A stretch of DNA of 64,000 nucleotides from Crambe crambe. Taxonomy: Eukaryota > Porifera > Demospongiae > Poecilosclerida > Crambeidae. The stretch is from contig OZ004586.1 of NCBI GenBank assembly GCA_963924555.1, positions 8,452,501-8,516,500 of the forward strand, given 5' to 3'. The notes below the pieces were generated by a model. That model saw only the letters and a program-made list of their open reading frames with translations. It was not told the DNA's origin and searched no databases. Positions 28,112 through 57,100 of this stretch are shown here, in pieces (within the stretch, counting starts at the first letter, position 1; the number at the start of each line of letters is the position of its first letter). The position numbers and the translations under genes are program-made.

Positions 28112-28559
28112 ATAAAGAAAAAGAACAAAAGTCAATTTTAGACATCGTTTTTTTCTTATGTTAGCGAATGAATTTTTGGTTTTGGAACATTCTCCTCTCT
28201 TCTTTGTAGATGTAATAATTCACTGTAGCCTTCTGAGAACCTGTAGAGTAAGGGTAGAAGAGAAAGAAGAGTTTTTAGTTTATACAGTCTTATGACCTTT
28301 GACCCGCTATCCCTACTTAGAGAGTGCTAGCGCACTCTCTGATAAAGAAAAAGAACAAAAGTCAATTTTAGACATCGTTTTTTTCTTATGTTAGCGAATG
28401 AATTTTTGGTTTTGGAACATTCTCCTCTCTTCTTTGTAGATGTAATAATTCACTGTAGCCTTCTGAGAACCTGTAGAGTAAGGGTAGAAGAGAAAGAAGA
28501 GTTTTTAGTTTATACAGTCTTATGACCTTTGACCCGCTATCCCTACTTAGAGAGTGCTA
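28112..28559. repeat. Tandem duplication, period 230 bp, directly upstream of the PNP exon
   Basis: 28112-28329 and 28342-28559 look identical base for base over about 218 bp, separated by a 12-bp piece (GCGCACTCTCTG) that completes an AGAGAGTGCTAGCGCACTCTCT palindrome. The second copy ends 25 bp before the ATG at 28585, so it probably contributes promoter or 5'UTR sequence. Confidence 0.9.
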
Positions 28560-28584: not shown

Positions 28585-31500
28585 ATGGAGGTACCTGCCT
28601 TTGGGGATGAAGATTTACGAAGGATTGTCAAGGAGAAAAAGCCACTTACACATGTACAAGAGAAAGAAGAGGATAAATTTAGCAAACTTATTACATTTCG
28701 CCAAACGGTTGAACTCATTATTCACACGGTCAATGGAAATGAGAAATGGGCTGTACTTGATTTGTTCAAGCCTCCTGAATTGCATCCCAATAATCCTATT
28801 ACAGAAAGGCATGTTGACCTTTCTGGACCAAACTGGATTGTGCTTGGAATGTTTGGAGGATACAAGTCTGCTTTAATTCAGACTGAACAGGGTGTTGAGT
28901 GTCAGGAGGAGATTGAGGAGGCTCTGGATAAATTTCCAAGGGCAAAATTCATCCTAGCTATTGGTGTTGCATATGGTTTCGATCCTAAAACCAAATATTG
29001 TGATGTACTAGTATCTAAGTTCATCGATGGGGTGGGCAACATCAAGTACGAGAGTGATAATTCAATCATTTCCAGAGCAAGCAGTCGCCGTTTCAATGAA
29101 GTTTCAAAGACTCTGAGAAATGTTTTTGCCAGAAATGTAGAAACATGGGGTGACTTCAAATGTACTAAAGAGGGGCGCTGTTCAATAGCTCATTCTGGAG
29201 TCATTATTAGTGATAAAGTGTTGGTCAACAACAAAGAAGTACGTAATGAAATTAAAAGGAATGCACCTGAAGCACTCGGAGGCGAAATGGAAGGCGTTGT
29301 TCTGTGTAAGATTAAGCAGAGTTTAGCGAAACGAAACAATCGTGAAATTGATGTAATCATAATCAAGGGAGTTGCTGACTATGCAGATGGAACAAAAGGG
29401 AAAGAGTGGCAACTTACTGCTGCCATGGCTGCTGTAAAGTATGCAGAATACGCATTGAAGTCAACTGAGGGAAAACTTTTTACAGAGGGTAAGTGGCATG
29501 TGTGCATTTTGCATGATATGATAATGAATATGCCATCTAGCTCATAGCAGTCTTGCCTAGCTTTAACATGGCCATGCCATACACTCAAGCTCAATCTTCA
29601 AGCATGAGTTTATTGTCCGTATTTTTTCCTTCCTCCTTCATATACTTTAGCTTGACCTTGCCAGGCCAGCTAGCAAGTGAAAGCTATGAACAGCGACAAA
29701 GTTCAAGATTTTACAATTTGTTTGAAAAAGGCAGGGTTAAAGTAGCAAGAACAGAAGCTACAAAGTCATAAGAAAGCAAATTAACAGTCGTGAGAAAGCA
29801 TGAAGCCGTAGGCAAGTCAACAATTGTTCAAGAAAGTACTGTGAGCAAGAAAACCAGCATGAAAGCCATGATCAGCTGCAAGAGAGCTTGCAAGAAAGCC
29901 TTAAACAGTAAGAGCAGAAGCTACAAAATCAAGAGTAGCTAGGTCCTAAGAAAGAGAGCCAAAAAACAAGGAAAACAAGCTATAACTATGACCACAATAA
30001 ATACTAGCTAACTAAACCTGTTTACCATTAAATCAAGATATAGTACTGCAGATACGTGAATGATTGTGCTTTTAATGATAATTTTTTGCCTCGGCACCAA
30101 AGTGCCAAGGCACAGTGCTGGAGGTGACTATGTCCTATTAGTAGCACACGAAGCGCATGACCTTAACCTGCTTACAAGCCCACAAGCAAGCCACGTGCAC
30201 AAGTGAGAAAGTAACTTAACGATCATCTGAGGAGCAAGAAAACCAAACAGCGAGAGCAGAGGGAAAAATTTTAGCTGTTTCCTCCATGGCATTATTGACA
30301 TGCTAAAGACTGCTATGTGATAGTGTGACTTATACACCATGACTTGCATCTATGGGGGTTGGTGGGTACATCTGTAACTCCTAGCTATACCTTCTGGATT
30401 CATTCCGTATAGTGGCTACAAATGGTATCTTCGCACCCTGGTACATAGCATTTCTGGGATTCATTAACCTGATGAGCCCACCTTGGGGCATTCATTACTT
30501 TCTTGATGTCCACCCTATAGGGCCGGCTAGAGAGCTGGCTCACATACCCGTTGATGTGTGATTGTGTTAGTATATTTGCCTTGCACATCTATATTATTAC
30601 TAGGGAAATGCAAAGCATTGTGGTAAGTGAAGCTTTAGCCTCATCACAAAGGACAGATCTAGAATCGCAATATTCTATGTCAAGGGACTCGTGTCATGAC
30701 TTCTGGCACCTTTGAAAGAAGGAAGTAACAACTTTTTCATATAGTTAGGTACATAGGTTACTATTTTAGCTAGTATACAATGTAACAGAGCAGTGTAAAT
30801 GAAGAAGTATTCTAAATGAAGAACTTTCGGTGTAAATGAAATTGTTTAGGGCCCTATGACTTTCAGTTCCACTGGTGTAGCAACTGAATTGACTTGTACC
30901 TGCTACTGAAGATAAATTTCGAGTAACAGAAAATGTTATTGGGTGCTTGGGAAGTTTGTCTGGTGGAGAGAGCATGATGCATGGTCACTGAGCTAGCTAT
31001 GTTGCTAATTCTAGCATATTTTTTTTCTTCGAGGTTTACGTATAAGCTTACATGTCTCCTTTGTCTGTTGTTTCTTTATTTTTTGGATTTCCACCATTAT
31101 ATTCCTGCCAAATTTGCACGCTCTGCTATTATTATTGCGCGGACATTAATGTTATTCAGTCTTCTCAATAGCTCTAGAATGTAGGACCTGGAGTTATGCC
31201 TTTGTAGAGGTTTGACTGGACTTTCACCGCTGGTTTAGTTTTTAGCAAGATAGTCTAGGAAAATTTATTTTGTGTATATTTTAATTAGTGTTAAAAAAGG
31301 CGTGTACAATAACAATAAAACAATCACTACAAAATAGACGCAGTATGGTGTGTAGTAGCTCGACATTAGGTGCATGAGTCAGCTTAGCCTGGTACCCATA
31401 ATCTCTCAGTAACTGTTTGTGACGCATGACACAATATACTGCTGAATCAGCACTGCAGTTCTAGTTCATTTCATGTGCCAGTTCTTCTTTGCAGATGGTG

Positions 31501-32676
31501 TGTTTGTTTTGACACCCTATCTCAGCTGGGACAACCCCGTCTAGTACTGAACAAGGAGCAGCAGGAAGCAATTCTCTCCATTCGTTTGTTTGTTGGGGAA
31601 TAGTGCAGGGCTGAGGCAGCTGTGATCTAGCCTCTTTCCCAGGCCTTCCTCTCCCCCTTGCAAAATTTAATGCTCACACGTGAGGGGGAGAGGAAGGCCT
31701 GGGAATGAGGCTAGCTATGATCATCTCTTCTGGCTTTGAGGGGGAATGGCTTATGGATAAGGATATTTTTGCCACTATGAATGGTTTTAGAAGTGCTTCT
31801 CTTCTCCAGAATTTCATTGCAATAGCTTTCTTGGTAACTTATAGCGCACACTCATACACGTAGTTACATGCTGTGATATCACACACCTGTAATAGGCAGG
31901 AATTTCATGTGAAATTTTTGGTGCATGCACAAACAGTGGGTACCAGGCTATATTTCCCATCTCTGCATAATTTTAGAGCAGGCTAAGGTCAGCTGTGCTA
32001 TTTTTGAGAAATAGGGTTTGTTTGTGGTTGTCAAAAATATACTTGCTATGCTCTTAGTAAGGTCAGTCAATAACAGCCTAGCAAACCTATATTGGTTTAA
32101 GGGCACTTCAATAACTTCAGATTCCAACATCTCTACAGATATAGGGATCAATTATGATAGTACTTGGGAAAAGGTACAATTTCACCCCCCCCCCCCCAAA
32201 AAAAAAAAAAAATGGAGTTATTAGTACCACGTTATAGCTCATTACCTTAAAGATACAACACTTGAAGCTAAATCTTAAACCACCGCAGTGTAATGTAGTG
32301 AGTAATAACTGTAATAGACTATTTCAACCAACACAAAACAAGACTAAAATGACAGAGACTAAAGCAGAGAGTAAATGTAAAACAATAAATACATTCAAGA
32401 AAAACCACAAGCAGATGATTTAACCACACAGCACAGAATCAGAGAGTGCGGTAGCACTCTCTATGTAGGGATGACTCGGACGGCCGCGCACACCGCCTAT
32501 AGACTAATACAAAAATGAAATCCTAGTTCCCCCACTTAGACCTAACAAAAGCTACTGTGAATGATTATCCAGCCTACTAGAGCCTACTACAATGTGCAGA
32601 CCAAGTTTCAGGACCAGGGAGCTCACCGTTTCAGAAATACGGCAAGCAGGTAAATCGCTATATTCTTCTTCTTCTC

Positions 32677-32720
<44 letters not shown>

Positions 32721-35700
32721 TTAGACAACCATATCTCTCGAACCACTCTAGCCTACAGCTATGATTTCTGGACAAATCCACTCCAAATTCTACGAACTAC
32801 GATCTTTTGTACTCGTTGATCCTCGAAAGAGTCGATGAAAAAAGGAGACACTACGGAGCACAGCACTCGACTAATTCAATTAGGAAGCCATCTTTTCTAT
32901 AATACGCATGCGCATGTATTTGATATCTAATTATTCGAAATTATAATATTACTCAGCTATCTCTCGATCTCTAGCTAGCTAGCTAGCTCTAGATAATGGA
33001 CTACACTATCGACTCGGGGATTTTAGATTCACCAATCCAGCTATCGGTAGACTCTATTTCAGCATCTTCGACCTCCAAGTATAGCTCAACAATAACACAA
33101 CACCTTGACTCGTTACTATGCTATTGGAGAACTATTCTTCTTCCATCTGTCCCCTGCATAGAAGAATGAACTCTATACATAGCTAAAACCATAAAAGAGA
33201 GGAAAAAAGACCAGAAACAAGTAAGAGAAAAAGCATTTCGTGAAATGAAAAAAAGATGTAGGGATGACCACTGCTCAAAAAAGTAAGGAAACAAGAAGGA
33301 TGGAATGGGATCAATCTTTGTTCTGTATATCCAGCCAACAATCCCTACATATACGTATATTACTGCACTACAATCTGAAGCTACCCGACGTATATGTAGG
33401 GATTGTTGGCTGGATATACAGAATAAAGATTGATCCCATTTCCATCCTTCTTGTTTCCTTACTTTTTTGAGCAGTGGTCATCCCTACATCTTTTTTCATT
33501 TCACGAAATGCTTTTTCCCAATTGTTACAGTATTCCACATGCGGAGCTATAAGCGCACCACTTCAGTCTAAGATTGAGTACCGTAGTCACTGTAATTCAA
33601 GCGCCAGAAAATAATAATTCCATGTAGGCATGGCACTTAGCTTATGACTTAAAAAATGCACTTCCTCTGGGCGTGGCGCTTAAATTACAGTGGCGCTTAG
33701 TTAATTGTAGCTTATCTGGACTGTAAAAACGTGGAGATGGCTGCTAGCAGTGCCAATCACTTTCAGCTGTCATTCAGCAGTGTTGTGAAGGGATTTCACG
33801 TGTATCAGGCAGTTTGGACCCCAGTGCTCAATGCTGAATACGTAACACAGCAAGAACATGGCAATAGTGAAGATCAGTATGCTGTGGCTGTGATTAACAA
33901 TGACCAGGTTGTCGGGCATGTACCTAGAGAGCTTTCCCAAATATTTTGGTATTTCATTGAAAGAGAAGGTGAAATTTTCTGCAAAGTCACTGGGAAAGGT
34001 CTGGACTCCTGCAAGGTGGGATGGAAATACCTTACATTCACACTCTGAAGGGGAAGAAAAAACTTGTGAATAAACTTAGGTTAGTACTGAATATTAAAAA
34101 ACTAAACAGTACCACATGATCGAGCTATCTACATGTTTTCATCAATATCAGACAAAGGTTCATAGGATGGGGGGTAATAGAGCCTTCAGCCTCACTATCG
34201 GTCATATCAGCATCACTGTTGGTCATAATTATATTCTGCTTCTTCCTCAGAACTGCAATCAGATTCAGCATCATCAGAACCACAATCAGATTCAGCATCA
34301 TCAGAACCACTATCAAAGGGGTCATGATCAGTCTGTTCCGGCTCATAGAAACCCATGTTGGCCTCCCCAAAAACTTCCACGATTATTTCATCTATTTCCT
34401 TTCTAACACGGTCATCTCTAATAATCTGATCTTCCTCTTTTCCAAGAGCATTTGAAAGCCCAGTAACTAGAAATGATTTCTTAACAATACATAAATTTGA
34501 ATCAAGCTTTTCATTAGCCTCCTCCATCCAGCTTACTACAAGTTGCTTGGGTGGTTTTTTTATTACCTCATCATCAGAGTGTTCAAGCATGTATTGAACC
34601 CATGAATTTCTCATATAAGCTTTTATTGGTTTGTTGATACTGACATCAAGAGGCTGAAGGATTGATGTACAACCATCAGGGATCACCAGGACAGTAGTAT
34701 TAGAATTCTGAAATGCATCCTTTACCTTATCAGTTAAGTGAGCACTAAATGTATCAAGGAAAAGTAAGGATGGCCGCCTCTTTGTGTACTTGACCCAAAT
34801 GTCCGAAATCCATTTTAGCATTAATTTTTCATCCATCCATGCTTTCTTTTGATAGCTAACTAGAGTGCCTTCTGATCCTTGTACCCCTCTTATAGATCTG
34901 GAAGTAGTACCTTTAAAAATCAACATGGGAGGAAGCATATTCCCCACCGCACTGCATGAAAGAACAGCTGTTAGCCGATTTTTTTCAGATTTGGTTGTCC
35001 TGACTTTGATAGTCTTTTTCCCCCTAACATCTACAGTTTTTGAAGGCACCATATCCATATAAACTGGGGGTTCATCCATATTACAAATTAAATGATACAG
35101 AAAATCACCATTCTCCCTTATACGCCTTACCTGTCTCCTGAATTCACTGATTTTACTTTCCAGATCTTTGGGCAATTCTTGAGCCATAGAGGTCTTAGCC
35201 CATAAAACTAAATTATGTCGCACCATAAATGATTTAAGCCACCCATCAGAAGCTTTAAAGTTAGGTAAAGTACTTTGTATAAGGCTTAATGCTTTTAACT
35301 TAATAGCTTGGGTAGAAACAGGCATGTTCTTCTCTTCTCGTTGCTCCAAAACCCACTGCAACAATTTCATGTCTATTTCAGGGGGATTTCTTCCTTGACC
35401 CTATCGCTTAGCACGATGTGGGTGCTTGATGATGTCTAGCTCATCTTTGAGCCATCTTTGGACATTTTTGGGGAATTGAATACCTGGTTCTCAGAGTTGG
35501 GGTTTTTTCTGTGGGGGAAGGCCCAGCAGAATCAGCAGGAAAATCAGCTGACAGAGGAGTGTCAGTAGAGAGATTGGCAGGTGGAGAAGAATCAGCAGAA
35601 GGATTGGAAAATGCAGGAGGATCAGCAGGAAGACTGGAAGGAGACAACAGTGGATCAGGACAAGGAATGGCAGGAGGGTTTTTCCTAGGCCTCCCAACCC

Positions 35701-38700
35701 TGTGCTTCTTGGATTTGGAAGCTGGTGCAGTTGGTTGAAATGCCCACTGTGAATCTAGAGGCTCAGTTGTTGGGACAAAAAAGCTCTTGATGAAAGTCTG
35801 CTTGGACGACATCGCCTCTCAAAAAAGCTGCTTCAATAATGACCACGTGGGTTGCATTTATTTAAGCGCCGCCTAAAAATAATACAGGAAGAGGTGTGGT
35901 GCTTTTCTAACAACTGCTAGCTGGCGCTTAAATTATAGTGGCGCTTGAATTACAGTGACTACGGTAAGCGTTTTGCAATAAACTACGTCTAAACATTGAA
36001 CTTCCGGTCAATACCCAATTACTCCATAAATCCTTACGTGTGTCCGTATAGCGCAATGACATCATTCAATTTCTCACCTCATGTAGCAGCTGTGTGGAGA
36101 AGAAGACTGCTTTACTCTATTGCTATCTTCGAGTGCTTGGGTTATCTAAGATATACAAAATGTAGGACAAGTTCTGAATAATGATCAAGTAAAGTTTATG
36201 GGTAGATAAAAGTGTAGTGTTTGATAGTTTTAAAATTCTTTATGATCCCATCTCTATATTTAAGCTTTATTAATTGATTCCTGTGGAAGCGGTGTTAGCC
36301 TGGGTTGGAATCTAGACACCGGTAGCTGTGTTTGAATGAACGCACTTCATTGTCAACGTTTAAGATCTTCATCCAGCACCTCCAGACCTGGATCTTCTGA
36401 CCTGTGAAGTTGGATGGCCCCTACCACAGCCTCTTCATAGCTAAATATCTGTGTAGCTAAATTGTATTCAATATGAATTTTTATTATTGTATGGGGAATT
36501 TCCCTAGATATCTTGAAGCATTAAAATTTGGGCACGTAGGATGTGAACATAAGTTCCAGGTGAGGTAGCTCATTTCAACTTGAACGCTTTCCCAGTTCAT
36601 ACTTACTGAAATCAAGAAAAAAAGAAGTGGATTTAAAAAAAACAACAACATTTTAACCTAAGGCTAGCTTTAGATGCACATATCTAATGATTCAATCTTG
36701 TGTGAAATTGTACCTTTTCCCCAAGTACTATCACATATTGCTATTGTTATTGTTATCATTCAGCTATGAGATATTGTGTCAGTGATAATGTCTATCTTTT
36801 ATAACAGGTGACCTTCAAGATGATGCAAGAGTCATCTCTACACCGTAAGTATTGGAGACTTTCATATACCATGGAACTGAATTATTGTATCAAATATAGA
36901 ATAAACCATTTATTGCACTCATCATGGAGTATGGTGAGTCATTTCACTCATAGGCTGTCCTTCAGCTCTTGAAGATACGCCCACCTTACTTGTGAAATAA
37001 CTTGCCATATTCTTAGCCTTGTACCCAGGCCCACTTTTTTCATGGGGCAGTGGAAAAGCGAGAGGGCCTGGTATCAATTGCATGCGCATGCGCTTAATCA
37101 AATATGTAAAATTTCGCGCATGGTGAATGATGTAATCATCAAAACGTATAAACATGCGCTCTAGACCTGATCCACATTAATGAAATAGAGTGAGACACAA
37201 CAAGAACAGCATTATATCCCTCCCAAGCCAAGCTTATGGTCAAAAAACAAAAGGTAAGAGACTCTTCTCGTCTAACCAGTTGGTAGCGACACAAACACAT
37301 CACTTCTTTCATAAACAGCTTGCACAGAACACTTTTGAGAGTGAGGCAATCTAGCGCAGAAAGAGCAAAGTGACAGAACAGTCTTTAGCTAGAGTTGCTA
37401 ACTCAGCTCTCAAAAATACGATGATGTAATATTTATTATTATGTAGTTACTGAGCATGTCCCATAGAGAATAGTAGTATCACAACTAGGGTGATATTTTA
37501 CCATATCGCGTAGTCATATTACATCCCCCTAGGCAATCTTGCATAAATTATTTTAAATAGTAAGTTCACTATTTTGCAGTACTGATAAGTTATAACTGTT
37601 CAGATAATAGAAACGTTCTGTTGGGTCTGTGTATTGCTTGATGGTAGTCCAACATTTATTGTACAACCTGTTAAGGTAGCACCTGAAAAAAAGGACTGGT
37701 AAGATTGGTCATTCACATCTCCAAGGCCAAAGGGTGTGGGAGTCTCAGCTGGAGCTGAATATGAACTTAGCACATGACTCATGTCCTTTTGCTGTTCCAT
37801 GGATGCCTTTTTGTAAGAATTTAGACTCTGGAGGTTTTTGTGACCAGTGAGCTGAATGATTTGAGTCTCAGGTACATTTTTGTTGGTAAGAGCTGTAACC
37901 ATGGTTTTTCGTGCTGAATGGTTAGTTTTTTTCCCAGTTACTCCTGCACTACATGCCATTCTCTTCATAATTGAACCAATTCGATCTTTTCCCATTCTCT
38001 GCCGTTTGTACCACAAATCATCACAAGAGGCTTTGTAGTTGACTGCCAAATAAAAAGGTGAGCCAGCTTCACACATTTCTGATGGTCTCTTTTGTAAATA
38101 TTTTTCAAAAATCCTTACAGGACATTTATCAGGATCAAGAGGTGTGCTCCACATCTTGGGTTTGAATGCTCGAACAGCACTAGTTTCTCTGGTTCTCGTT
38201 TTTGTATTACGTTCATTAAATTCTATATATCTGTAATTATCTTCTGTGGATTGTATGCTAAAATCACCATATTGAAGCTTATAATGCTTATCTCGACCTC
38301 TCATTCCCATGTGCAAAGTTAGAAGAAACCAAACAGTATTTTGTAGAATCTCTGGTGTAGAATTTCCTAGAACTCTAACACTCCACATTTTCTCAATATC
38401 TGCATTTTCTAAAGGCTCAGATGCATTTATCCTGTTCCCTTTGCCTTCTTTTTTTAACATTTTCCTGGCTGCTTTCAGCTTTTCACGTGATGAGGCAAAC
38501 TGAATATCACGTATGATACTATAACTTTTATGCAGATCTTTGGTTAAATGCCTGTCAATACTCCTTTGAAAACATGTTAAAGTTTCTGGTTCATATGTAG
38601 ATCCATCTGCTTTCCTCACTTTGCAATAAAAGTGGCCAAGTAGCCTATCTAACTCACTAGGAGATATTTCTCCTAATTTTCTTCTCTCATTGACGGATAA

Positions 38701-41700
38701 ACACCAGGTATACCATTTTTTAAAGTCAGACTCTGTTTTTCTCTTAGTATTTACATTCTCTTGCTGTTTTACAAACTCCTCTAGTTGTTCATCGTTTAAA
38801 AGTGACTCTTCACATGTAACAGCCTGTTTGGTTAAAAAATCAGTAATTCAGTTAGCTAGCTATTTTTGTTGCTGAATTCTTGAAACTGACCATAATATCC
38901 TCAGCAGCTATTTCTAATACCAATGGTTCTTCTTCTTCCACAATTGGATATTGTTGCTATGTGATAAAAAATACTGTTGTCTAGCTAAAGTATGAAAAAG
39001 TGACACAAATAATTTACCTGGAATTCTTGATGCATTTCAGGCAAACTTAAATCCATTGATTCAGCCATTTTTCAGCTAAATGAACTGTGGTAGCCTTTTC
39101 AATTTCGAAAAGAATCTGGTAACTAACGACCTTGCGCAACGCGCATGCTCAGTAACTACATAATAAATAGATTATTACGTAGATACCGTGAAATATCACT
39201 CGTCTGATTGGCCGGTATTCACACTCGTGCCACAATGTAATAATCTATATTTACGATTTGTGTAATGGATGTGCCTGAAAGTATAGCGAATCCCTTTAAT
39301 TCAAGGGCTGGAGCGCATGCACATGCAATTGATACCAGGCCCTTCACCCAGCAAAAAAAGTGGGCCTGGGTACAAGGCTATAGCCATATTAATTTGCAAC
39401 ACTTTAATTAGGTCTTCTGGTGAGTCAGCACTGATGCGATATGCAAATCAATGTCTGAAACCACATTACAAGAAAGACTCTATATGCCGTGATGACAAAT
39501 TTTCCATGAATGTATGCAGTGAATTCATTAAACTAGCTTTAATTCCAAAAGACAAGACCAAATGTGAAGATGATGTGTCTTCAAAGGCTTCCCTGCATTT
39601 TAGTGTGGATAAAAACCTAGAAGCTAAAACTCCTTTAGGTTTAAATGAAGTTATTACATCAGACACCAAATTTGTGTTGGTGGAAGGGTGTCCTGGCTTT
39701 GGTAAAACCACTTTATCCTGGGAGTTATGCAGGAGGTGGGATACCTTCAGTTCCTTAAACCATTATAAGATCGTACTATTGCTGAAGCTTCGTGAACCAG
39801 GTGTCCATAATGCTACTTCCTTGAATGAACTGTTTTCAATTTGTTATGTTGATGAAGATCTATGTAAGGAAGTAGTGGGAGAGGCATTGAGATCTTTAGG
39901 GAACGGCATTCTCTTTGTATTTGATGGATACGATGAGTTGCTTTCTTCTGTCATCCGTAATAACAAAAGTTTGATTATGAAACTGATCAATGGTTCTTGT
40001 TTGCCGTGTGCCACTCGTGTGGTCACCAGTCGACCATCTGCTCTTCACTACAACAAGCACTTTCCAGCAGAATTTAGGCACATAGAGATACTTGGTTTCA
40101 CAGATGAGTGCAAAGAAAGGTTTGCTGAAATTGCTTTTAAATCAGAACCTGATCTCCTAAAACAATTTAAGGTTTTCATGGTTTCCAACCCCATCATCAA
40201 CTCACTGATGTACATCCCTTTCAACTGTGCTATCTTAGCACAAGTGTACAAAGATATCAGAAATAGCAGAGAGCTGATCCCAAAGACCATGACACAGCTC
40301 TACACCATTTTGACTGAAGCTTTGATTTTGAAGCACATGACTTCTAGTGGTAAGTGGGATGAAGATTCCAGTGAACTTCCTGACCTGAACCATCTGTCAA
40401 ACGACATCTCAACTGACTTTGAGAGAGTATGTGAGTTAGCGTACGAGGGTCTTTTTAAAGAAGATGTGCAGCTAGAGTTCAGTAAGAGTGATGTAGGAGA
40501 TGGTTTCCAGCATTTAGGTCTGATGACTGAAACCAAGGAGAGGAACATGGGTGTAACTACTTCCTACTCCTTCCCCCATCTCAGCATCCAAGAGTTTCTT
40601 GCTGCTTGGCATGTTTCATGTCATTCTGATTTGGTATACGAAGCTTTTTCTAAAATAGTATCCCTATATGGAGATATTATACCACACCTCAGAGTCTTTG
40701 GTCAGTTCTTGTGTGGCATTATAGGCTACTATGAAATTTTTATTCATAAAATCCCAGATCTTTTTCCTTACATACTACATTGTTTATATGAAATCAAAGA
40801 TATTTCTAAGCTTTATCCAATATATATTCCCAATTTACACTTGTCCACCCCCTTGGATGCGTATGTTTTTGGATATTGTCTAGTCCGTGTTCCTATTCAA
40901 TGCCAGTCAGTGGTCATAAATACATCTCTAAAGATGTTGCTGCATAGTCTGCATAGTTTGTCTGAGAAAACAAATGGTGCAACATTAGGGACTATTAATG
41001 ATCTATGTATATTTGGTAAGCATACATCATCCATGAAACTTAAATCTCGTACAAAGTACCTCCCCAAACTTCACGTCAAAAGTTTCAGTCCATGTCAAAT
41101 TTCTTCCCCATTGGTACCAGTTCTTGCTGAATTGATTTCAGTGTCTTCAGGATTGACACTAGTTGACTTGAGTTTTTCTGAATCGTGTGAAAATGACTAT
41201 TTACTTTTCCAATCCATTCAGCATATTGCAAATTTAGAAAAATTCTACCTTACTTGCTGTACTCTTACTCAGAAAGGTGTACAAGAATTATCCAAAATCA
41301 TAACCACTAGTTCTACTCTCACATCTTTAAGGCTTGAATTACATCCTCTTTTACTGTGTGAAGCTGAAAGTAGTGAGGAACATAAATTACTGGTATCAGT
41401 CTTATCAACATCTTTTGAACTTTATTCTGCACTAATTAGGGCTTCCACGACTATTTCAATATTGCATACTAATATTCCATGTATTACGAATATTGATGTC
41501 TGTTTTCTGGTCTTCTCCTCCACTTATCATCTGCATCCACTGGAAGTGCTGAGATATTTCCGATACTCGAGCTGCAATGTAGAGATGAACTCCATTGAGT
41601 CACTAGCTATCCCAGCAAGAATTGATGACCTACTAATTGCAATGCCTCAATACTGTTGCAATCTTATCATGGGTCTAAATGATTCTCTTCATCTCAATCA

Positions 41701-42088
41701 CTCCATAAAGGAGTTGACATTTAAGCATAAATTTTATCTCAGAAGGTATTCATCCTTTCGTGACTGCATTGCCCGTGCTCTGCGAAGAGATCCTGCTGTT
41801 CCACGACACAACCTAAGGAGATCCCAGTCCCTCTGTGATCTCAGAACTCTGCACTTCCCCCATCGCCACCAACTACTACAACAACAAAGTATCTCTTCCT
41901 TGTCATTGCTCTCTTCTGGGTGGAGACATATTTCCCCCAGGTCACAAGTATCATGTTATCCTTACCAGTCTTGTCCTAACCTGCTGGAGATGCAGGCACT
42001 CAAGAACATGCACCCTCTTTTACAGGAGGCTCTTGGATACAATGAACTATCAATAAATGAGTTTTACTTACACTACTGTTATCCATGA
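28585..42088 (+). CDS. PNP/nucleosidase-like domain fused by splicing to NACHT receptor with conserved C-tail
   Basis: Exons 28585-29488, 36808-36844 and 39412-42088 join with the same phases as the CARD-NACHT gene and give 1,205 aa. Donors are GTAAGT, acceptors ACAG and TTAG. The first exon is a PNP_UDP_1 fold: Gly-rich strand-loops (GMFGGYKSA, AIGVAYGFD), EMEG at 234-237 for ribose binding, and GVADYAD with the putative catalytic Asp265, aligned with EMEA and SDVAD of MTA/SAH nucleosidase. The NACHT exon has GCPGFGKT (406-413), DGYDE (485-489), TSRPSA and HLSIQEFLAAW (about 705). The tail contains RRSQSLCDL. Known relatives: nucleosidase-NACHT/STAND proteins of fungi and cnidarians, and bacterial immune effectors in which this fold hydrolyses ATP or nucleosides. 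The ATG at 28585 has a good context (AGTATGG). The join across 7.3 kb containing transposons is inferred; each exon alone is secure. Both introns carry mobile elements. Confidence 0.7.
29489..31382. other. first intron of the PNP-NACHT gene, proximal part; dispersed repeats only
   Basis: No further exon recognised. 30086-30130 has GCCTCGGCACCAAAGTGCC, a dispersed repeat also near 12280. 30355-30890 is a diverged relative of 21600-22363 (TGGCTACAAATG, GAAGTAACAACTTTTTCA, GGGCCCTATGACTT). Confidence 0.5.
31383..31987. mobile_element. MITE with CTTAGCCTGGTACCC ends
   Basis: CTTAGCC at 31383 and GGCTAAG at 31981-31987 bound the element, and GTCAG flanks both sides. The interior resembles the MITE at 25580-26170 (CTGAATCAGCA, ACAAGGAGCAGCAG, ACATGCTGTGATATCACAC). 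A nested hairpin with GCCTTCCTCTCCCCC arms lies at 31631-31720. Confidence 0.75.
32443..32830. mobile_element. AGAGAGTGC repeat family, copy 2, with ATT microsatellite
   Basis: Same order of blocks as copy 1 at 25268. A perfect ATT run occupies about 32679-32719, absent from copy 1, where the site reads ATTGTTATCGTTATTC. Confidence 0.75.
33228..33517. mobile_element. Foldback MITE (AAAAAGCATTTC ends), copy 2
   Basis: Close copy of 26243-26531, with arms carrying GATGTAGGGATGACCACTGC and GGGATTGTTGGCTGG near the loop. Noncoding. It lies 63 bp upstream of the pogo element. Confidence 0.85.
33737..34048 (+). CDS. HIRAN-like small protein carried by the pogo element
   Basis: 103 aa from the ATG at 33737 (the in-frame GTG at 33731 is less likely). 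The pattern EHGNSEDQYAVAVINN followed by VVGHVPRELS is that of the HIRAN fold, which binds DNA ends in helicases such as HLTF. It lies on the strand opposite to the transposase, inside the same TIRs, and the two genes converge. A possible GTGGGA donor at 34016 could extend it. Stand-alone HIRAN-like ORFs accompany transposon genes in other marine invertebrates, so it is probably an accessory factor; function is not known. Confidence 0.6.
   Translation: MAASSANHFQLSFSSVVKGFHVYQAVWTPVLNAEYVTQQEHGNSEDQYAVAVINNDQVVGHVPRELSQIFWYFIEREGEIFCKVTGKGLDSCKVGWKYLTFTL
34213..35812 (-). pseudogene. Pogo-family transposase (CENP-B HTH plus DDE_1), broken
   Basis: The main frame 34213-35370 encodes the end of the CENP-B-type HTH (DGWLKSFMVRHNL) and a DDD catalytic core: NMDEPPVYMD, LLFLDTFSAH and VIPDGCTSILQPLD. 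The N-terminal part 35441-35812, starting MSSKQTF, has an AT-hook-like RVGRPRKNP and a Pro/Ser/Ala-rich repeat region. The two are separated by a frame change around 35450-35500 and an in-frame TAG at 35401-35403. The catalytic aspartates persist, so decay is recent, or an undetected intron explains the break. The C-terminal end carries a repeated acidic DDAESDC motif. Confidence 0.85.
35967..36807. other. first intron of the PNP-NACHT gene, distal part
   Basis: No alternative N-terminal exon (CARD-like or otherwise) is recognisable here. This favours the PNP exon as the partner of the 36808 microexon. The only long frame (35996-36181) has no features. Confidence 0.45.
36808..36844 (+). other. 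37-nt microexon of the PNP-NACHT gene
   Basis: Bounded by TTATAACAG| and |GTAAGT. Encodes GDLQDDARVISTP across its junctions with phase 1 in and phase 2 out, the same as the 34-nt microexon at 1914-1947 plus one codon. Confidence 0.7.
37012..39382. mobile_element. Tyrosine-recombinase element with TIRs, 2.4 kb
   Basis: The left arm 37012-37093 (CTTAGCCTTGTACCCAGGCC...GCGCATGCGC) is inverted at 39313-39382. GCCATATT occurs directly at 37004-37011 and 39383-39390, an apparent 8-bp target duplication. Each arm can itself fold (ACCCAGGCCC against GGGCCTGGTA). It carries one three-exon recombinase gene and sits in the second intron of the PNP-NACHT gene, ending 30 bp before the NACHT-exon acceptor. 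Confidence 0.8.
37600..39068 (-). CDS. Tyrosine recombinase (Crypton/DUF3504-like), 446 aa
   Basis: Exons 39018-39068 (MAESMDLSLPEMHQEFQ), 38891-38956 and 37600-38823 join in phase 0 at GTAAAT and GTCAGT donors. The C-terminal half is a YR integrase fold: Arg in GMRGRDKHYKL, a Lys-containing strand (NTKTRTRE), HSAR, LTGHKN and the Tyr nucleophile in SLNSYKKAS. The closest animal pattern is the Crypton-derived DUF3504 domain of ZMYM2/3/4, QRICH1 and KCTD1. The upstream part (FKKWYTWCLSVNERR) matches the SAM-like DNA-binding region of such proteins. No disabling change is visible, so the gene may be active. It lies antisense to the host NLR-like gene. Confidence 0.8.
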
Positions 42089-43407
42089 TTATAACTACCA
42101 TTAAGTTCCATCCTGTTATGTTATCACTTGAATAATACAATAGCAATATACATACTAGCCTTGTACCCAAGCCTTTTCTTTTTAAGGTCTGTGTACAAGG
42201 CTAATTCCCATATCGAACTTCGCGCAATATAGCGCGTAATAATGCGTTAATTCGCTATCAAAATCGACGCGTGTAGTAAACCCCTTTGGCTTCCAAAACC
42301 ATGCATTTTTGCACATCCAGTTATCCAGGAGAAAAACGGGAAATTTCCTGCTAATGAATATTCATTGTCGGCATGTCGGCACTATCAGTAAATAGAGATC
42401 TCAGTGAACAATAGAAAGATTGATAAGCGCTTTGATTCAAGTGCTTTTGCTTTGAAGAAGCTTTGATGTTTGCTTTCATCACTCTTTTTTTTTTTTTTTT
42501 TTTTTTTTTTCAAAGGAATGACTAGACATGCATGCCTCTACTTGCCTACGTAGCCCATAGTTGTTTGGAGGTCTTAGCAGGAGAAGAAGCGGTGGAAAGG
42601 AGTGGCTCGTGCTGCTCGAGCTGCAAGTCAGGTTGCCATGGGGAGCATTGATGACGTAGGATTGGCCGTCCAATTTGCCACTGGTGTGTCGATCCTTTCT
42701 CGAGAGAAGAAGACAGCACTACTGAAGGTAAAGGGGTAACATCATCTCACGTAAAAAGTCGCGGATTACGCGTTATTATGGCCACGTAAATTCGCGTAAG
42801 AGTGCCGTTTAGTGACTGGATCATACTGCTGCTATTGAAAACTTATGACGCTTGAATAACGTTTAAGGATCAGCTGTTTTGTACAATGCATAATTGAGCT
42901 CTCTAAAATGAGACAATTTGGTTGGTCCGTGTGACGTGATATTACATGCCTGCGCATGCACATAAATTATTGCTATGGTTTTTATAATAGTTCATGGACT
43001 GCTGTTAGTGTGTGTGAACCGTCCAACCCAGTTCACCACTTGCACTCTGAGAACCTCTCCAGGTCCAGGACAACACTCTGAATATTCAAAACAAGAGCAT
43101 CAATCTTGAATCAACAAACAAAATTCATAGCTAACTGTTCAGTGAACATTGCGCATGAAAGTAAACACTAGTAGCTCATTTTTTTCCATGACGTGGACAT
43201 GGGGACCACACCAGCTAGCATAAGCTAATAATAAAGGGTGGGCCCAACAAAAAAGAAACAAAGGGAAGAACAGGTACATGAACAAACAAATAAAAGAGAA
43301 GTGTTCACACAATAATAGCTTCATAAAAATAAGATGTCAGCTCGACAATTCCACCTGGTATCGAGTTCCATAGCCTGGCAGTGGTGGGGAAGAATGAGTT
43401 AGCATGT
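42089..43407. other. intergenic between PNP-NACHT gene and NLR pseudogene
   Basis: No gene recognised. Contains a solo hairpin at 42156-42203 and a 26-base T tract at about 42485-42510. The remainder is anonymous AT-rich sequence. Confidence 0.45.
42156..42203. repeat. Solo TAGCCTTGTACCC hairpin, copy 1
   Basis: TAGCCTTGTACCCAAGCC is followed closely by GTGTACAAGGCTA, forming a hairpin that matches the outer ends of the tyrosine-recombinase element. An equal copy in the same context follows the NLR pseudogene at 45179-45226, so it predates that duplication. A related one is at 57926-57982 and another at about 63496. Confidence 0.75.
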
Positions 43408-45060
43408 ATGTACTTCTAGTGGTAAGTGGGATGAAGATTCCAGTGAACTTCCTGACCTGAACCATCTGCCAAACGACATCTCAACTGACTTTGAGAGAGT
43501 ATGTGAGTTAGCGTACGAGGGTCTTTTTAAAGAAGATGTGCAGCTAGAGTTCAGTAAGAGTGATGTAGGAGATGGTTTCCAGCATTTAGGTCTGATGACT
43601 GAAACCAAGGAGAGGAACATGGGTGTGACTACCTCCTACTCCTTCCCCCATTTCAGCATCCAAGAATTTCTTGCTGCTTGGTATGTTTCATGTTCTGATT
43701 TGGTAGACGAAGCTCTTTCTAAAATAGTATCCCAATCTAGAGTTATTACACCACACCTCAGAGTCTTTGGTCAGTTCTTGTGTGGCACTGTAGGCTACTG
43801 TGAAGAATTCTTTCAAGCCATGCCATATTATATTTCTTCTTACCTACTGCATTGTTTATATGAAATCAAAGATATTTTTTCAATAGGCATCAAAATTTCC
43901 AATTTACACTTGTCCAACCCCTTGAATATGTATATTTTTGGATATTGTCTAGTCCATGTTCCTATTCAGTGCCTGGTAGTGAACATATGTACATCTCTAG
44001 AGATGTTGGTGCATAGATCACACAAAGAAAACAAATAGTGGAACATTAGGGACTATTGAGGTCTTACATATACATGTACATCACAGTGTCCATATTGTAT
44101 CATCCAAACTTACATCACTCACAAAGTACCTCCCCAAATTTCACATCAACTTTTTCGCTCCATATAACATTTCTTCTCCATTGGTACCATTTCTTGCTGA
44201 ATGGATTTCAGTGTCTTCAGGATTGACAAGTGTTCACTTGCACTTTTCTGAATCATGTGAAAATGACTATTTACTCTTCCAATCCATTCAGCATATTGCA
44301 AATTTAAAATCGTTCTCTCTTGATTGCTATGCTCTTACTCAGAAAGATGTACAAGAATTATCCAAAATCATAACCACCAGTTCTACTCTCACATCTTTAA
44401 AGCTTAAATTACATCCTCTTTTATTGTGTGAAGCTAAAAGTAATGAGGAACATAAACTGCTGGTATCAGTCTTATCAACATCTTTTGGACTTTGTCCTGC
44501 ACTAATTAGGGCTTCCTCAACTATTACAACATTGCATACTAACTTTCCATGTATTACTAATATTGAACACTTTACCCTCGAGTCCTCCTCCTTCCCCTTC
44601 CACTTTACTTCTTTTCATCCACTGGAAGTGCTGAGATGTTTCCGATACTCCAGCTGCATTGCAGAGATGAACTCCATCAAGTCACTAACTATACTAACAG
44701 ATATCGATGACCTACTATTTGCAATGCCTCATTACTGTTGCAATCTCATCATGGGTTTTAATGATTCTCTTCATCTCAATCACTCCATTATAAGGAATTA
44801 ACATTTCGTTGTATTAGCAGGGATCTCAAAAGGTCTCCATCCTTTCATGACTGCATTGCCCATGCTCTGCGAAGAGATTCTGCTTTTCCACGACATAACC
44901 TAAGAAGATCCCAGTCCCTTTGTGATCTCAGAACTCTGCACTTTTCTCACTGCCTCTCTCCAGTCTTGTCCTAACCTGCTTGAGATACAGGCACTCCAGA
45001 ACATGCACCCTCGTTTACAGGAGGCCTTCAAATACTATGAACTATATTATCCTCGATAAA
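43408..45060 (+). pseudogene. 5'-truncated NLR-like pseudogene
   Basis: Begins abruptly at TACTTCTAGTGGTAAGTGGG, matching the middle of the NACHT exon at 40337, and is almost identical to that gene for about 220 bp. It retains SIQEFLAAWYVSC and parts of the LRR-like region, then breaks at a TAG (44036-44038), resumes at about 44181-44801, breaks again, and ends with recognisable tail codons (RRSQSL, SCPNLLE-like). NACHT Walker motifs are missing. The 3' flank including the solo hairpin matches that of the PNP-NACHT gene, so the piece arose by local tandem duplication. Confidence 0.85.
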
Positions 45061-45178
45061 TCTCTTACTAGTTTATAGACCCTAGCTACTTACTTGGAAT
45101 GTAGACTACGTTTATAGCTACTATTAAGTTTCATTCTGTTATGTTATCACTTGAATAATACAATAGCGACATACATAC

Positions 45179-45226
45179 TAGCCTTGTACCCAAGCCTTTT
45201 CTTTTTAAGGCCTGTGTACAAGGCTA
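45179..45226. repeat. Solo TAGCCTTGTACCC hairpin, copy 2
   Basis: Same sequence and context as 42156-42203, one substitution apart in the right arm (GGCCTGTGTACAAGG against GGTCTGTGTACAAGG). Confidence 0.75.
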
Positions 45227-45713
45227 AGTAACATAATACTGCTGCTATTGAAAACTTGCAGGTGCATTCTGATACTTGAATTAAGCTTAAGGATCAGCTG
45301 TTTATTATTATTTAGAGGCTGTCCTAGCCTATGAGACTTTTTTGTGGAAAGCAGAGGATCCAGTAGAGGCCATAAAAACAAAAAACAACAACTGGTACTT
45401 CCAAATAATGAACACACTTGTGCATTTTATAGAGGTTCGCCTGGTTATTGTGTATAGTTTGAGGTTGTCTCATTGGAGGGCTGTAATAGCTAATGATGCA
45501 CGCACGTTATGCTGTAGCTATTACAGTTAATTTTCATTGAAAGATTATTGTGTGGGTATTAAAAAACAACAAAAAACAACAAGTAATTATAATTATGTAA
45601 CAATCAACCAAACATTCATAGCTAACTACAATGATGATAGCTAATCAATCTTCCATGGCTACAAGTCTACAGCATGAATAAGAGTAACATAAATTTGAAA
45701 TTGGTGCAGTGCC

Positions 45714-48700
45714 TCAGGGGTGGAATATCTTGGTGGTGTCAACAATACATTTGATGAACATCACGTCATTCTTGACATAACTCTCGTCATCAAAGATGTT
45801 GAGTTTGGCAAACTGTGGACACCCTGAGGCCACATTCATGTCAGTCTGAGGTTGTTGGAAGGAGCTGGACTCCACTGTTGGTTTGAAGGTCTGCACCACG
45901 TGCTTCCGATGTGTCTGATCTAAAGATGAAAAATACAATAGACTAAATATTAATATTATGTGTGTTTGACTTACCAACTAAAATCATGGAGATTTTGTAC
46001 TCAAATGGCCACTTGAGGAGGGGGTCACACTCTCCCTTCATCAGGACAAAAAAGAGAGAGAGGTGTGTCTTGTAGCCCATACCATCTCCATTCAGATAGG
46101 CACGGATACACATTTTATATCCGTTCCTGGTTCCGGAATGAAAATAAACAGAATTATGATGAAAATCTTTGCAGGTTTTGCAATTGTTCTCTTTACAGAT
46201 TGTACAATTGAATTTTTTTGTTTGTTTGTTTTTCTTCATTTCTGTATGTTTTTGTTTGTTTTTTTCGTTATAATTTTTTGTTGTTTTTAAAAAATAAAAT
46301 ACTTAAAAAGATTGCAGACCTTCCCGTATAGAATGGCGGGCTATAAATGGAAGTGACTCTCTCCTCAATGGCATCCCTCTTCCTCCGAGACACATCCGGG
46401 ATCCTCCAGAGGAACGCTCCATTGTGAGTGCTGGCCAGAGAAGCTTGTAGTTGCAGTTCCAGTTCTTGCACGTGGACTTTGACGAGGGTCATTTGTTTGG
46501 CCAAGTCTTCCACCCTCTTCTCCACCACAGCCATTCGAGAATCGGAGCTGCTCCCAAGGGGTATGTGACCTTTGCACCCATAGCATCAGTTTATGTGGAG
46601 AAAGAGAAAGAAGTTCATAGCGCATGGGATGTGGGACTTCAATATACACATTAAACGATAAGTTGGTAACCATTGCAAGCATGTTGTACGAGGATTATAT
46701 CAGACAATGTTCCACCTTCATTCAACCAATTCAATATCAGCTGACTCCCACTGTGTTCATGCATTATCTATTGAACCTGACAAAGTACAATCTCTACTGT
46801 ATAGGTTGTCATAGGCAAGTATAGATGGACTCTCCATTGGAAAAATGTGTGCACTACTGCAAACACAATAGAGAGTTTACATAGCTACAACTGCATGAAT
46901 CTGGTCAGGTTTCATTTGATCAACCACAAAACCTGATCAGGAGTTTTGTAAACCATAGAACAAATTGTATTCACCACCTATTCCCCTAGCAACGGACAGT
47001 ACATACATAGCTTCTCCCTAAAGGTTTATTTCCCCTGAGGACTGGGGTGGGGTTCTCCCTAGGGATAATCCCAAGGTACTCTCATTCCCCAGAGGGTATA
47101 GAAGATTGCAGAATCATTGCAACAAAATATGGCATTTATATTCCTTATACAGAAGCTCTCAACTATCTGCACACCTTTTACTTCTCTCCCTTGGGCACAA
47201 AATTCTGTATATTAGGCATCAACCACCCAATCTTCCTCACACCTACTTTTCTCTCTCGTGAGGGGGGTTACAGTATCACATGACTCACCAGTTCTTCTCC
47301 TGACACTGTCCTGTTCCACCACCCCCATGTTTGTCATGGCATCTCCAAACTGCCTGATATTGCTCTCTGACTGAGTCTTGATGACCTCGACTGTCTTCTG
47401 AAGGTGATTCAGCTCGGTCTTCAAGCGGATGACGGTAGCAGTCTTCTCAGCATCGGACTTTCTGAGTTCCTCCAGTTTGCTGATGAGGGTGTGGTCAATG
47501 ACAGGTTTCTTGTTGTAAGATTCAGTCTGTTGACGTATTTCATTTACTTGGTTAGTCAGTGCTGATATTTCCAGCTTCAGCTCCTGCACCAAGGACTTCA
47601 AGTTCTGATTTTCATTCTGCAATAAAGACAGTGTTGTTATGCCAACAGTCAATGAGATACGAGCGATGGATTATAGCAATGGATGTGAGTGACGATGGAT
47701 TATGAACCCACGGTGGGATGTGATGTGATGTGAGAGATTACAGTGGAACCTCCAATAAAGGCACTCCAAAAGAGGACAAACCTCTAAAGTGCCTTTGTAT
47801 ATACACTCGAACCTCCAAAAAAGACAACCTCTTTACAAAGGACAAAAGGCCAGGCAAAGTGTGTCAATTTTGGAGGTTCCACAATAATTATAGTAATAGA
47901 TTAAAAGAACATGATTATTATTGATTTCTCACTTGAATGGGGGAAATACTAACTTTATTACTGCTCACTTTCACTCACAAACTATTGAATTCCTACTCTG
48001 ATATGGTAAGGTTCCACGTACATGCATTGTCTGGGGGGGGAGAAATGCTGTGCTGGTATTCGGTATTATTCATGTGACCTTAACAATAATTATGGCTTAG
48101 AAAGTATGATATCCAGAAGTCCCTAGAACTCTCCCTAGCTGAGATTCACTTTCTTACCCATTGACCAGGAATCGTGGGAGGGGTTTTTAGTTGTGTATTT
48201 GTGGTGAGCCACAATGTCCACCATAGCAGCCAATGACAGCAGTTTCCCACCTCCAATATTGTAAACAGTTTGTAACAGCTCCCACTACTAACAGGCCAGA
48301 CTCACTGAGATCAAATGAACCAGACAAATATAAATTGACTGGGGAGAATTTGACCCAACAAAAATTGGCTGGAACATGTCTTTAAATTTTTTGAGTATTG
48401 AACTAACAGAATCAGTGACTGACCTGAAGTTGAGTGAAATCCTCCTTTGTTCCCGCCCACTCCTTGCATAATTGTATCTGTGCACTGGCAGTGGAGGTGA
48501 CTTCACCTTGTAGCTTCTCAACGCTCTCAGCAAGACGCTGATGGTGTCGAAAGTTGTCTAGTGGATTAGAGAGGTGGATATTATAGGGAAGTGAGGAGGG
48601 AGGAGGGGGCAGAGAGGACCCTCCGACAGGATCACTACAGAAGGAGGAGAAGGGAGAGGAGGAGGAAGAGGAAGGGAGTGGGCATGGCAGTTCCAACATA

Positions 48701-54178: not shown

Positions 54179-57100
54179 ATTTCCACACCTCTTCAGTGAT
54201 AATGATATCCAAGTCGATATTTGCATGGATGAAGTGGCCGTCCTGATTCCTGCGAACTGTCCCCTTAATGCCTACACCCATGCAATATTAACATTTCACA
54301 GGAAAAAAAATTATCAGATAGAGTAGGTAGTTACCACTAATCCTGCTGAACATCCCCTGGGGATTTCCCCACTGTGGCATGCAACAATTGAGTGATTGGA
54401 ATTGTATACATAGCTAACTGAGTCCCTCCGAAAAACTATTACCTGGGAATTTTCAATGCTGTACTACACTTCTATGAATTCAAATAAATAGGACCCTGGC
54501 ACTATAATGAAAGATATCTTCTAACTATGATATAAATCTATGCCAAAATTATAATCCAGTCACCTTGGAGGTAAACTTACACAGCCATGCAATCAATGCC
54601 AAGTCTCAAAAATCTTGAATCATAATTAGCTTACAAAAGGTTGCATGCAGAGGCTGCAGATACATGCATACATTATGGCATGGACCCTACACACTTACCC
54701 ATTAAGCAGTGTTCTTTTGTGTTCTGGAAAATGGATTTCTGGTCGAGGTAAGTTTTGTTGCCTGGTCTGTTGATGTTTGACTTAACCCAGCAGATGTCCT
54801 CACAACGCCTGTACCCCCACTTCTTGAAACACTCTCTCCCTGCATAGAGGAGGAAGCCACCAGTACGTTGCTTATTACTCCTTTATTAAGACTATAATCT
54901 GCAATTTAATCACTGCAGCAAATTGCTACCCTATAATATCTCCTTTCTTATGAAAATAGCTAAAGGCCTGGGATGTTATAATCAAGGCAAGCAAATTGCA
55001 TATTTGAAAGAACATCAGTATTTATAGGTATAATAGAACCTCTGAATACAACTCAGGACCCATGCAGCCTTATCCTCTTTGGAGGTTAGTGTATGCATGT
55101 ATATACAAAGATATGAGAGAGAAGAGTGTGTCCTTTTATCGAAGGTTCCACTGCATAGCTATAGAGTACCTCTTGCATACTGACATGGCCATGGAATGAT
55201 GTAATAATGTAGCTACTTAAAATAAAATGGGGAAAATCTAGGGAAATTTCCACCAAAATAGCTTACACTGCACATGATTAGCTACAGATGTCGATGACGC
55301 ATGCATGTAATGAGTATAATCATATTCATTATCAGATTGAGATTCATAACATTGCTACACTAAGTTCACAGGAACCATGTAGCTATATTCATAATGTTAT
55401 GAAGACTCCATGCACACATAGCTACACACGTAATGGAAATCATGACACACTAGCTAGATTTGAATTGTGTTTTTGAATCACAATGCGCAGATTGTTTAGT
55501 CTCACAAGAATAAACAAAAACAGAAGATTCACGAGTGTTGGCTATATGATAGCAGTTCCACTTAGACCGCAGTTCTTGATCAAAGATCTGAGAGTTAATA
55601 GCTAATTAATTCAGTCTTATAGAGCTATATATAAACATATACATTCAGCTAGAATATGTCTGCTATGAGTGGTGGTGGCACACAATCACTTGATCAAGAT
55701 TCACTACTCAAGAAGCTTGAAAAGGAGTTAACTTGTCCAGTTTGTCTGCTTCAGTTCAAGGAGCCCAAGTTCCTTCAGTGTCATCACATCTTCTGTAGAT
55801 GTTGTATCCAACAGCTCACAAAACAGGAACTAATGGAAATCAATTGTCCCATCTGTCGTCAAGCCACGCCCATCCCATTTGGAGGTGTGGCAGATCTACA
55901 GACTGCTTCTATTATCCAGAACATAATGGATCACATGCACGAAGTGAGTGGCCATGGGAGACAGTATTCTGACCACACCCTCAATCTGGACGCTCCAATT
56001 GCGAGTATTGAGGGGGCAGAGGGACCATGGGGAGTGGCCATGGGCAAAACAAAAGAGGAGGTTTTTGTGGTTGAAAATGGTGGCAATTGTGTCTCTGTAT
56101 TCAATGATAAAGGAGCTAAACTTCGATCCTTTGGGACGTGTGGATCCTGTGAGGGACAGTTTGACAGTCCTCGTGGAGTGGCAGTTGACAGCGAAGGATG
56201 TGTGTTAGTGGTGGATGAGAAAAACCATCGAGTCCAAAAGTTCTCAGAAGATGGGAAATTGCTCACTACAGTAGGTAGACGTGGGAACGGACCTTTAGAG
56301 TTTGAGTTTCCCCACGGCATTGCTGTGCACCCTCACACACAAGACATATACATCACAGAAATTGACAATCAGAGAGTGCAAGTACTAAAGAAAGATTTGA
56401 CTTTCTCTCAAAGTTTTGGCAGAAGAGGTCAATCAGATGGAGAATTTATGTTCCCGTTTGACGTGTCTTGCAGTGCCAGTGGCAAAGTGTATGTTGCTGA
56501 TACCAATTCCATCCAAGTCTTTACAGATAAGGGATCGCTTATTGATAAGTTTGATGAGAGACGTAGAGATGATATGAAACGGGTTCATCCAGTTTGTATT
56601 TGTATCAGTGATGATGTGGTGTTCGTCAGTCGCTGGGAAGGGAACAGGGTCATGGCATTCAGCGATGATGGAAAACCACTCGTATTGGATGAGAGAGGGA
56701 AAGGAGAGGGTGTGTGTCATCCTCGTGGAATGACAGTGGATAAAAGAGGCAGAGTGTGGCTTGCTGACCAAAACCATGTACGATGCTTCGAAATAAAGAT
56801 GTAACACCTTTTCATGCACATCAATATCATATCTATACTTACTGTATTGTTATTGAATAATGAACCATGTATTGTTGTGATAAACTACAATTCCCATAAT
56901 CATCATTATTATTATTGTTGTGTTCCCAAATGTTTTGTTTTTGTGTAACTTTAGACGTGGGGAAAGATACGCTAACACACCACATATGATATGCACATGA
57001 ATACCTACTCCCAAAGAGTAGAGGATCATATCTATTCCTTGAACCACACCCACCCATGTCTTAACATGGTGCCTGAATTCTTGAACTACACCCACCTGTA

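Follow-up and report, generated by a model that had tools for sequence, protein, structure and literature searches.

A predicted nucleosidase-NACHT receptor gene in the sponge Crambe crambe

A gene of the sponge Crambe crambe appears to encode an NLR-type receptor with a nucleosidase at its N-terminus. Quite probably, the N-terminal Death or CARD exon of an NLR gene has been replaced here by a nucleosidase (PNP) exon through the phase-1 junction of the family. The product would consist of a nucleosidase, a short linker, a NACHT domain and an LRR-like region, and would cleave adenine nucleotides when triggered. A preliminary description had read the locus as an animal NLR-type receptor with a PNP effector. 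This gene model is supported because its structure is homologous to that of sister genes, no Death or CARD exon is detectable between the PNP and NACHT exons, and a transcript-like protein from another organism, P0195, joins a PNP domain to a STAND NTPase. The gene lies in a window of 64,000 nucleotides, the whole stretch analysed (C9:8452501-8516500), of a 143-Mb genome comprising 119 contigs. Positions without a contig prefix refer to this window.

Proposed gene structure and the microexon

The proposed first coding exon encodes a PNP/MTAN-type nucleosidase (28585-29488, plus strand). It opens with an ATG at 28585, spans 301 codons plus one nucleotide, contains the motifs EMEG and GVADYAD, and ends with TTTACAGAGG at 29488, directly before a phase-1 GTAAGT donor. 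Beyond a first intron of 7,319 nt (29489-36807) lies a 37-nt microexon, GDLQDDARVISTP, on the same strand (36808-36844), which is preceded by TTTTATAACAG, followed by GTAAGT, entered in phase 1 and left in phase 2. The NACHT exon (39412-42088, plus strand) then encodes a NACHT domain, a helical region and a C-terminal part that looks LRR-like by eye, and runs to the stop codon. Joined together, the three exons form 3,618 nt with no internal stop and encode 1,205 amino acids plus the stop. The motifs, the donor and the in-phase continuation through the microexon were thus all recovered as first described. Phase and microexon homology support a predicted splicing of these exons that would place PNP N-terminal to NACHT. 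At the locus, neither splicing of the PNP exon elsewhere nor a death fold joined to 36808, the two contrary cases named in the preliminary description, has sequence support.

Phase agreement was rejected as proof of the microexon because chance candidates are frequent. When 200 segments of 9.9 kb were drawn at random from the window, on both strands, they held a mean of 6.4 phase-compatible microexon candidates, compared with four on the plus strand and none on the minus strand of the actual interval. The microexon is assigned by homology to the NLR family of the sister genes, because together with its intron flanks (36765-36864) it aligns to the Death-NLR L038 on the same contig (L038rc 896-1006; 77.7% identity over 112 nt, E 1e-18). 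L038, whose NACHT exon is at C9:7868762, has a 37-nt microexon followed by GTAAGTATT, about 200 nt past its Death match. The local match stops at 36765; farther upstream in the interval, searches revealed no Death exon. The microexon itself has one copy in the genome when up to three mismatches are allowed.

Four of the five sister genes examined carry a microexon (the CARD-NLR in the window, L034, L036 and L038); in L037, nothing comparable lies within 700 nt of the Death exon. Full models were built for two of them, and in both the microexon is entered from a phase-1 donor. The CARD-NLR of the window (1497-7596, plus strand) consists of a CARD-like exon (1497-1815), a phase-1 junction, a 34-nt microexon (1914-1947), a phase-2 junction and a NACHT exon (4431-7596). 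The Death-NLR L034 (C9:8375060) has a Death domain in two exons and a 25-nt microexon before its NACHT exon, with the same two phases in the same order. Pfam scores for these sister effector exons (Death E 7e-4, CARD E 0.011) are both under the curated cut-offs. In these two sisters, 57 and 98 nt separate the microexon from the effector exon and some 2.2-2.5 kb separate it from NACHT; in the PNP gene the two distances are 7.3 kb and 2.6 kb.

The 7.3-kb intron with its transposons had been named as the weak point of the model. The length of the introns can be put down at least partly to later insertion, because a mobile element nearly fills the second intron and another is present in the first. 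A single element with terminal inverted repeats (about 37015-39379) occupies 2,365 of the 2,567 nt of intron 2 and has a minus-strand open reading frame (37600-38847) for a DUF3504/QRICH1-like tyrosine-recombinase protein. Without it, some 200 nt separate the microexon from the NACHT exon. Intron 1 harbors a palindromic repeat near 33,250-33,500 and a Tc5/pogo-type transposon (inverted repeats 33579-33606 and 35939-35966).

Effector exons across the NLR family

An effector census was made for 38 NACHT exons with at least 57% identity, chosen from 84 matches; four fragments at 60-78% identity and every match below 57% were set aside. Effectors entered for contig C9 were 17 Death first-exon, 26 CARD and 2 PNP matches, exclusive of fragments and antisense matches. 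Within 12 kb upstream on the same strand, the effector closest to NACHT is a CARD exon in 21 cases, a Death exon in 11 and a PNP exon in one, the gene under study. The remaining five NACHT exons have none; farther upstream, at 14.6 and 15.3 kb, two of these are preceded by a Death exon. The two NACHT exons on C16 and C11 have no neighboring Death or CARD match among those listed. Death and CARD exons lie 1.2-4.8 kb from NACHT in 31 of 32 cases and 10.2 kb away in the other; the PNP exon is at 9.9 kb.

No Death or CARD exon was found between 29488 and 39412, either in a genome-wide search with two protein queries (for Death, among the matches listed) or locally with six Death queries and one CARD query. 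The sole match, 19 residues long (E 0.95), is at 24816, outside this interval, and a hidden Death or CARD exon before NACHT was rejected on these searches. Pfam genome scans for Death and CARD were uninformative, as they scored the best candidates alone and the NLR exons tested fell below the curated cut-offs.

The NACHT exon

Profile searches bear out the proposed NACHT domain (PF05729, E 1.8e-17, 64.1 bits against a cut-off of 26.7), and a P-loop (GCPGFGKTT) and a Walker B motif (LFVFDGYDE) are recognizable by eye. The C-terminal part matches no Pfam LRR family at E 0.1; its LRR-like spacing was judged by eye. The exon shares 94% amino acid identity with its copy in the Death-NLR L035, 114 kb away. 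All five indels between these copies in the coding sequence are divisible by three, versus two of eight in the downstream flank (44011-46774). However, dN is about equal to dS (0.031/0.040 by NG86; 0.034/0.031 by YN00), so dN/dS shows no sign of constraint on NACHT. Identity rises from 90-97% in the first 1 kb to 98-100% beyond it, a step that suggests gene conversion. Homology to sister exons starts at 39422. Because bases 39412-39421 do not match and the sister linker is missing, the acceptor at 39411 is not conserved.

The nucleosidase domain

The PNP exon has the predicted PNP_UDP_1/MTAN-type fold, and the proposed profile match lies just above the curated threshold (PF01048, E 1.1e-5, 25.4 bits against 25.1). 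E236 and D265 align to the MTAN catalytic residues E174 and D197; E236 is unchanged in all 40 aligned sequences, and conservation of D265 among them is at least 90%. All 21 profile matches among solved sequences are MTA/SAH nucleosidases, as are the best fold matches. The structural matches have 12-20% identity, and the best single-sequence match to a solved enzyme has E 0.27. With E 6.9e-6, the match to the NCBIfam MTA/SAH nucleosidase model is far under that model's cut-off. Among PADLOC models, PDC-M60C (E 8.6e-9) and PN-superfamily (E 1.1e-4) are matched; a type II methyltransferase model matches P0001 at E 2.1e-4, about equal to the PN effector. The domain resembles a hydrolytic adenine nucleosidase, and the receptor may, by analogy, deplete purine nucleotides.

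PNP paralogs and a second STAND architecture

The PNP-NACHT pairing is unique so far, because 14 full-length PNP paralogs were searched for this NACHT type over about 8 kb of downstream sequence and none has it on the same strand (E 1e-4). One paralog (L031) has this NACHT type on the opposite strand. Death-like open reading frames occur near three others, one above the cut-off (L027, E 5e-7) and two below it (L026 and L028). When PNP and NACHT proteins of other organisms were compared by the length of their contigs, with 120 of 766 NACHT matches listed, the sole coincidence was a contig of this same species (511,430).

P0195 (JGI), of 1,056 amino acids, was the sole long protein recovered with a PNP domain of this type. 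Its 3,265-nt contig is probably a transcript, judging from its length, and possibly an intronless gene on a short contig. The PNP part is 53% identical over 95% to the one described here, although its own Pfam PNP score is under the cut-off. It is followed by a hydrophobic segment, a STAND NTPase and another hydrophobic segment (both segments by eye). This NTPase scores just under the Pfam cut-off for NB-ARC (E 1e-4) and matches the present NACHT in the P-loop stretch alone (E 0.02). No P0195-like STAND was found at E 0.01 in the window or downstream of PNP at 16 PNP loci.

The P0195 STAND domain has one close homolog in the C. crambe genome (C10:125264-126913, 54% identity; next best 29%). 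Upstream of it is a Death domain in two exons, weak singly but above the cut-off when joined manually (PF00531, E 6.7e-6), and no PNP among the matches listed. These Death exons are presumably spliced to the STAND exon. If so, a second receptor type carries PNP in one organism and Death in the other at the same position.

Proposed mechanism and alternative explanations

In the favored explanation, the nucleosidase exon would have taken the place of a Death or CARD signaling exon, joined through the family's phase-1 junction. The C-terminal part would sense a ligand and cause NACHT to oligomerize; oligomerization would cluster and turn on the nucleosidase. The enzyme would then cut the N-glycosidic bond of adenine nucleotides (ATP or dATP, as immune ATP nucleosidases would suggest) and so starve the cell or parasite directly in place of recruiting a caspase adaptor. 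Open frames, phases, microexon homology, the predicted nucleosidase fold and catalytic residues form the sequence basis of this scheme; splicing, activation by oligomerization, the substrate and the outcome are putative. Several observations weigh against the explanation: the pairing of PNP with NACHT is unique so far, the PNP exon lies farther from NACHT than 31 of 32 Death and CARD exons, the acceptor at 39411 is not conserved, dN is close to dS, L037 showed no comparable microexon, and a methyltransferase model fits P0001 about as well as the PN effector.

The locus might instead hold two genes: a PNP gene that reads through to a stop at 29545-29547 or is spliced elsewhere, and an NLR that either has a damaged 5' end and begins within the NACHT exon (in-frame ATG, 39434) or represents a duplicate in decay. 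Paralogous PNP exons without this NACHT type downstream, the late start of NACHT homology at 39422 with its absent linker, and a dN/dS near 1 all fit such a division. It is nonetheless unlikely, as the NLR microexon is preserved with its flanks upstream of a NACHT reading frame that has been maintained, and entry from a phase-1 donor is seen in the sister genes read. Furthermore, the terminal residues of several of the closest PNP relatives fit the same donor, as read from protein ends alone, and P0195 continues beyond the donor point into STAND.

Other doubts concern the enzyme. Low similarity to solved enzymes would agree with a catalytically dead domain that serves in binding or oligomerization alone, but the conserved E236 and D265 and the uniform profile matches to MTA/SAH nucleosidases make this quite improbable. 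Those same matches lend some weight to a true MTA/SAH nucleosidase activity rather than ATP destruction, and interference with bacterial signaling has been raised for fungal PNP_UDP-NLRs in PMC4986451. This remains a minority possibility, somewhat doubtful given that the receptor context would favor a triggered effector. The superfamily also includes the immune ATP nucleosidases, few of which may be present among solved structures.

Relationship to known systems

N-terminal nucleosidases have already been reported on coral and fungal NLRs (PMC4986451), as the preliminary description partly stated. Coral NLRs with N-terminal PNP_UDP (Hamada et al. 2013, via PMC4986451) combine it with an animal NLR core, like the present gene, by comparison of descriptions alone. 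In the present gene, by contrast, NACHT has its nearest relatives among the Death- and CARD-NLRs of its own genome, which makes an exchange on a single chassis visible. PNP_UDP combined with a death domain in a sponge (Yuen et al. 2014, via PMC4986451) is likewise a pairing of PNP with an immune-type domain and recalls the Death-like reading frames near some paralogs, whereas in this gene PNP sits before NACHT at the Death position of its sisters. Fungi have many PNP_UDP NLRs in the same effector-NACHT-repeat order, and N-terminal domain exchange has been inferred among fungal NLRs (PMC4986451, PMC9815663). Their repeats are ANK, WD40 or TPR rather than LRR-like, and they belong to another kingdom.

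In immune proteins, PNP effectors act on ATP, which they cleave after the system has been triggered (PMC11249213, PMC12881547; see also PMC12409349). Bacterial immune ATP nucleosidases (Detocs/PNP, PMC11249213; PADLOC PN-superfamily) are of the same superfamily, with a weak profile match. Unlike Detocs, no two-component signaling is seen here, and ATP cleavage is putative. P0195 shares the PNP type and differs in its NB-ARC-like STAND with hydrophobic flanks. The literature searched yielded no report of a sponge PNP-NACHT NLR. For Dysidea avara, 126 NLRs are described as 20 with CARD, 25 with Death and 81 without or with a few other N-terminal domains; the words 'phosphorylase' and 'nucleosidase' are absent from the main text of that paper, whose full domain lists sit in supplementary tables.

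N-terminal PNP on NLRs of corals and fungi, and PNP with a death domain in a sponge, were thus already known (PMC4986451). What appears new is the exchange of Death or CARD for PNP by way of a conserved microexon on a single NLR chassis, and possibly a second PNP/Death exchange on another STAND type.

Implications

If the favored explanation is true, the gene would represent a clean swap on an animal NLR, with an enzyme in place of the death-adaptor domain, and its Death-armed sister would serve as a built-in control. It would open a test of whether animal NLRs can act by direct enzymatic nucleotide depletion, like bacterial and fungal ones. There is an even chance that the nucleosidase exon serves sponge-type animals as an exchangeable weapon cassette that swaps with Death or CARD on at least two unrelated STAND chassis, the NACHT-NLR family and the P0195 type with its homolog after Death exons, making sensors evolutionarily switchable. 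If so, the same sensors would switch between recruitment of cell-death adaptors and destruction of nucleotides, as in bacterial defense.

Mobile elements and neighbouring genes

The introns of the proposed PNP-NACHT gene harbour mobile elements. A Tc5/pogo-type element at 33579-35966, in the first intron, carries a minus-strand DDE_1 transposase (34213-35400) and a plus-strand ORF (33701-34045) that, judged by eye, resembles a HIRAN domain. The terminal-inverted-repeat element in the second intron (37015-39379) codes for a DUF3504/QRICH1-like tyrosine recombinase, and 32 nt separate its insertion from the NACHT exon. Immediately 5' of the PNP start codon lie two identical copies (100%) of a 218-nt repeat, spaced 230 apart (28112-28559). 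The window also contains a CARD-like NLR gene model with an open frame (1497-7596, including a 34-nt microexon), which served as a comparison gene, and a TRIM-NHL type ORF with a RING finger and NHL repeats (55653-56804).

Genomic distribution and duplication

Most related NACHT exons (27 of the 38 chosen among genome matches with at least 57% identity) fall in a dense minus-strand cluster at G000:C9:7060000-7552000, where nearly all have a CARD or Death exon upstream. At G000:C19:5263000-5272900 (locus L021), a PNP paralog is followed by a GTPase ORF and a 1,160-aa ORF, named by eye as GBP-like and as having fibronectin-like stretches, respectively. Loci L026 and L033 form a single stretch (G000:C1:2185600-2205400) combining a Death-like ORF that scores below the cut-off (E 0.009), a PNP exon and a caspase ORF (Peptidase_C14, E 8.8e-13).

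Downstream of the NACHT exon, a truncated, frame-broken partial NACHT/C-terminal copy (43403-45050) matches 40340-40621 with 98% identity across 282 nt. Because a similar partial copy lies behind the sister Death-NLR gene (C9:8381898), and because 44011-46774 is 95.6% identical to L031, a locus with NACHT on the opposite strand, these sequence matches indicate duplication of a several-kb segment.
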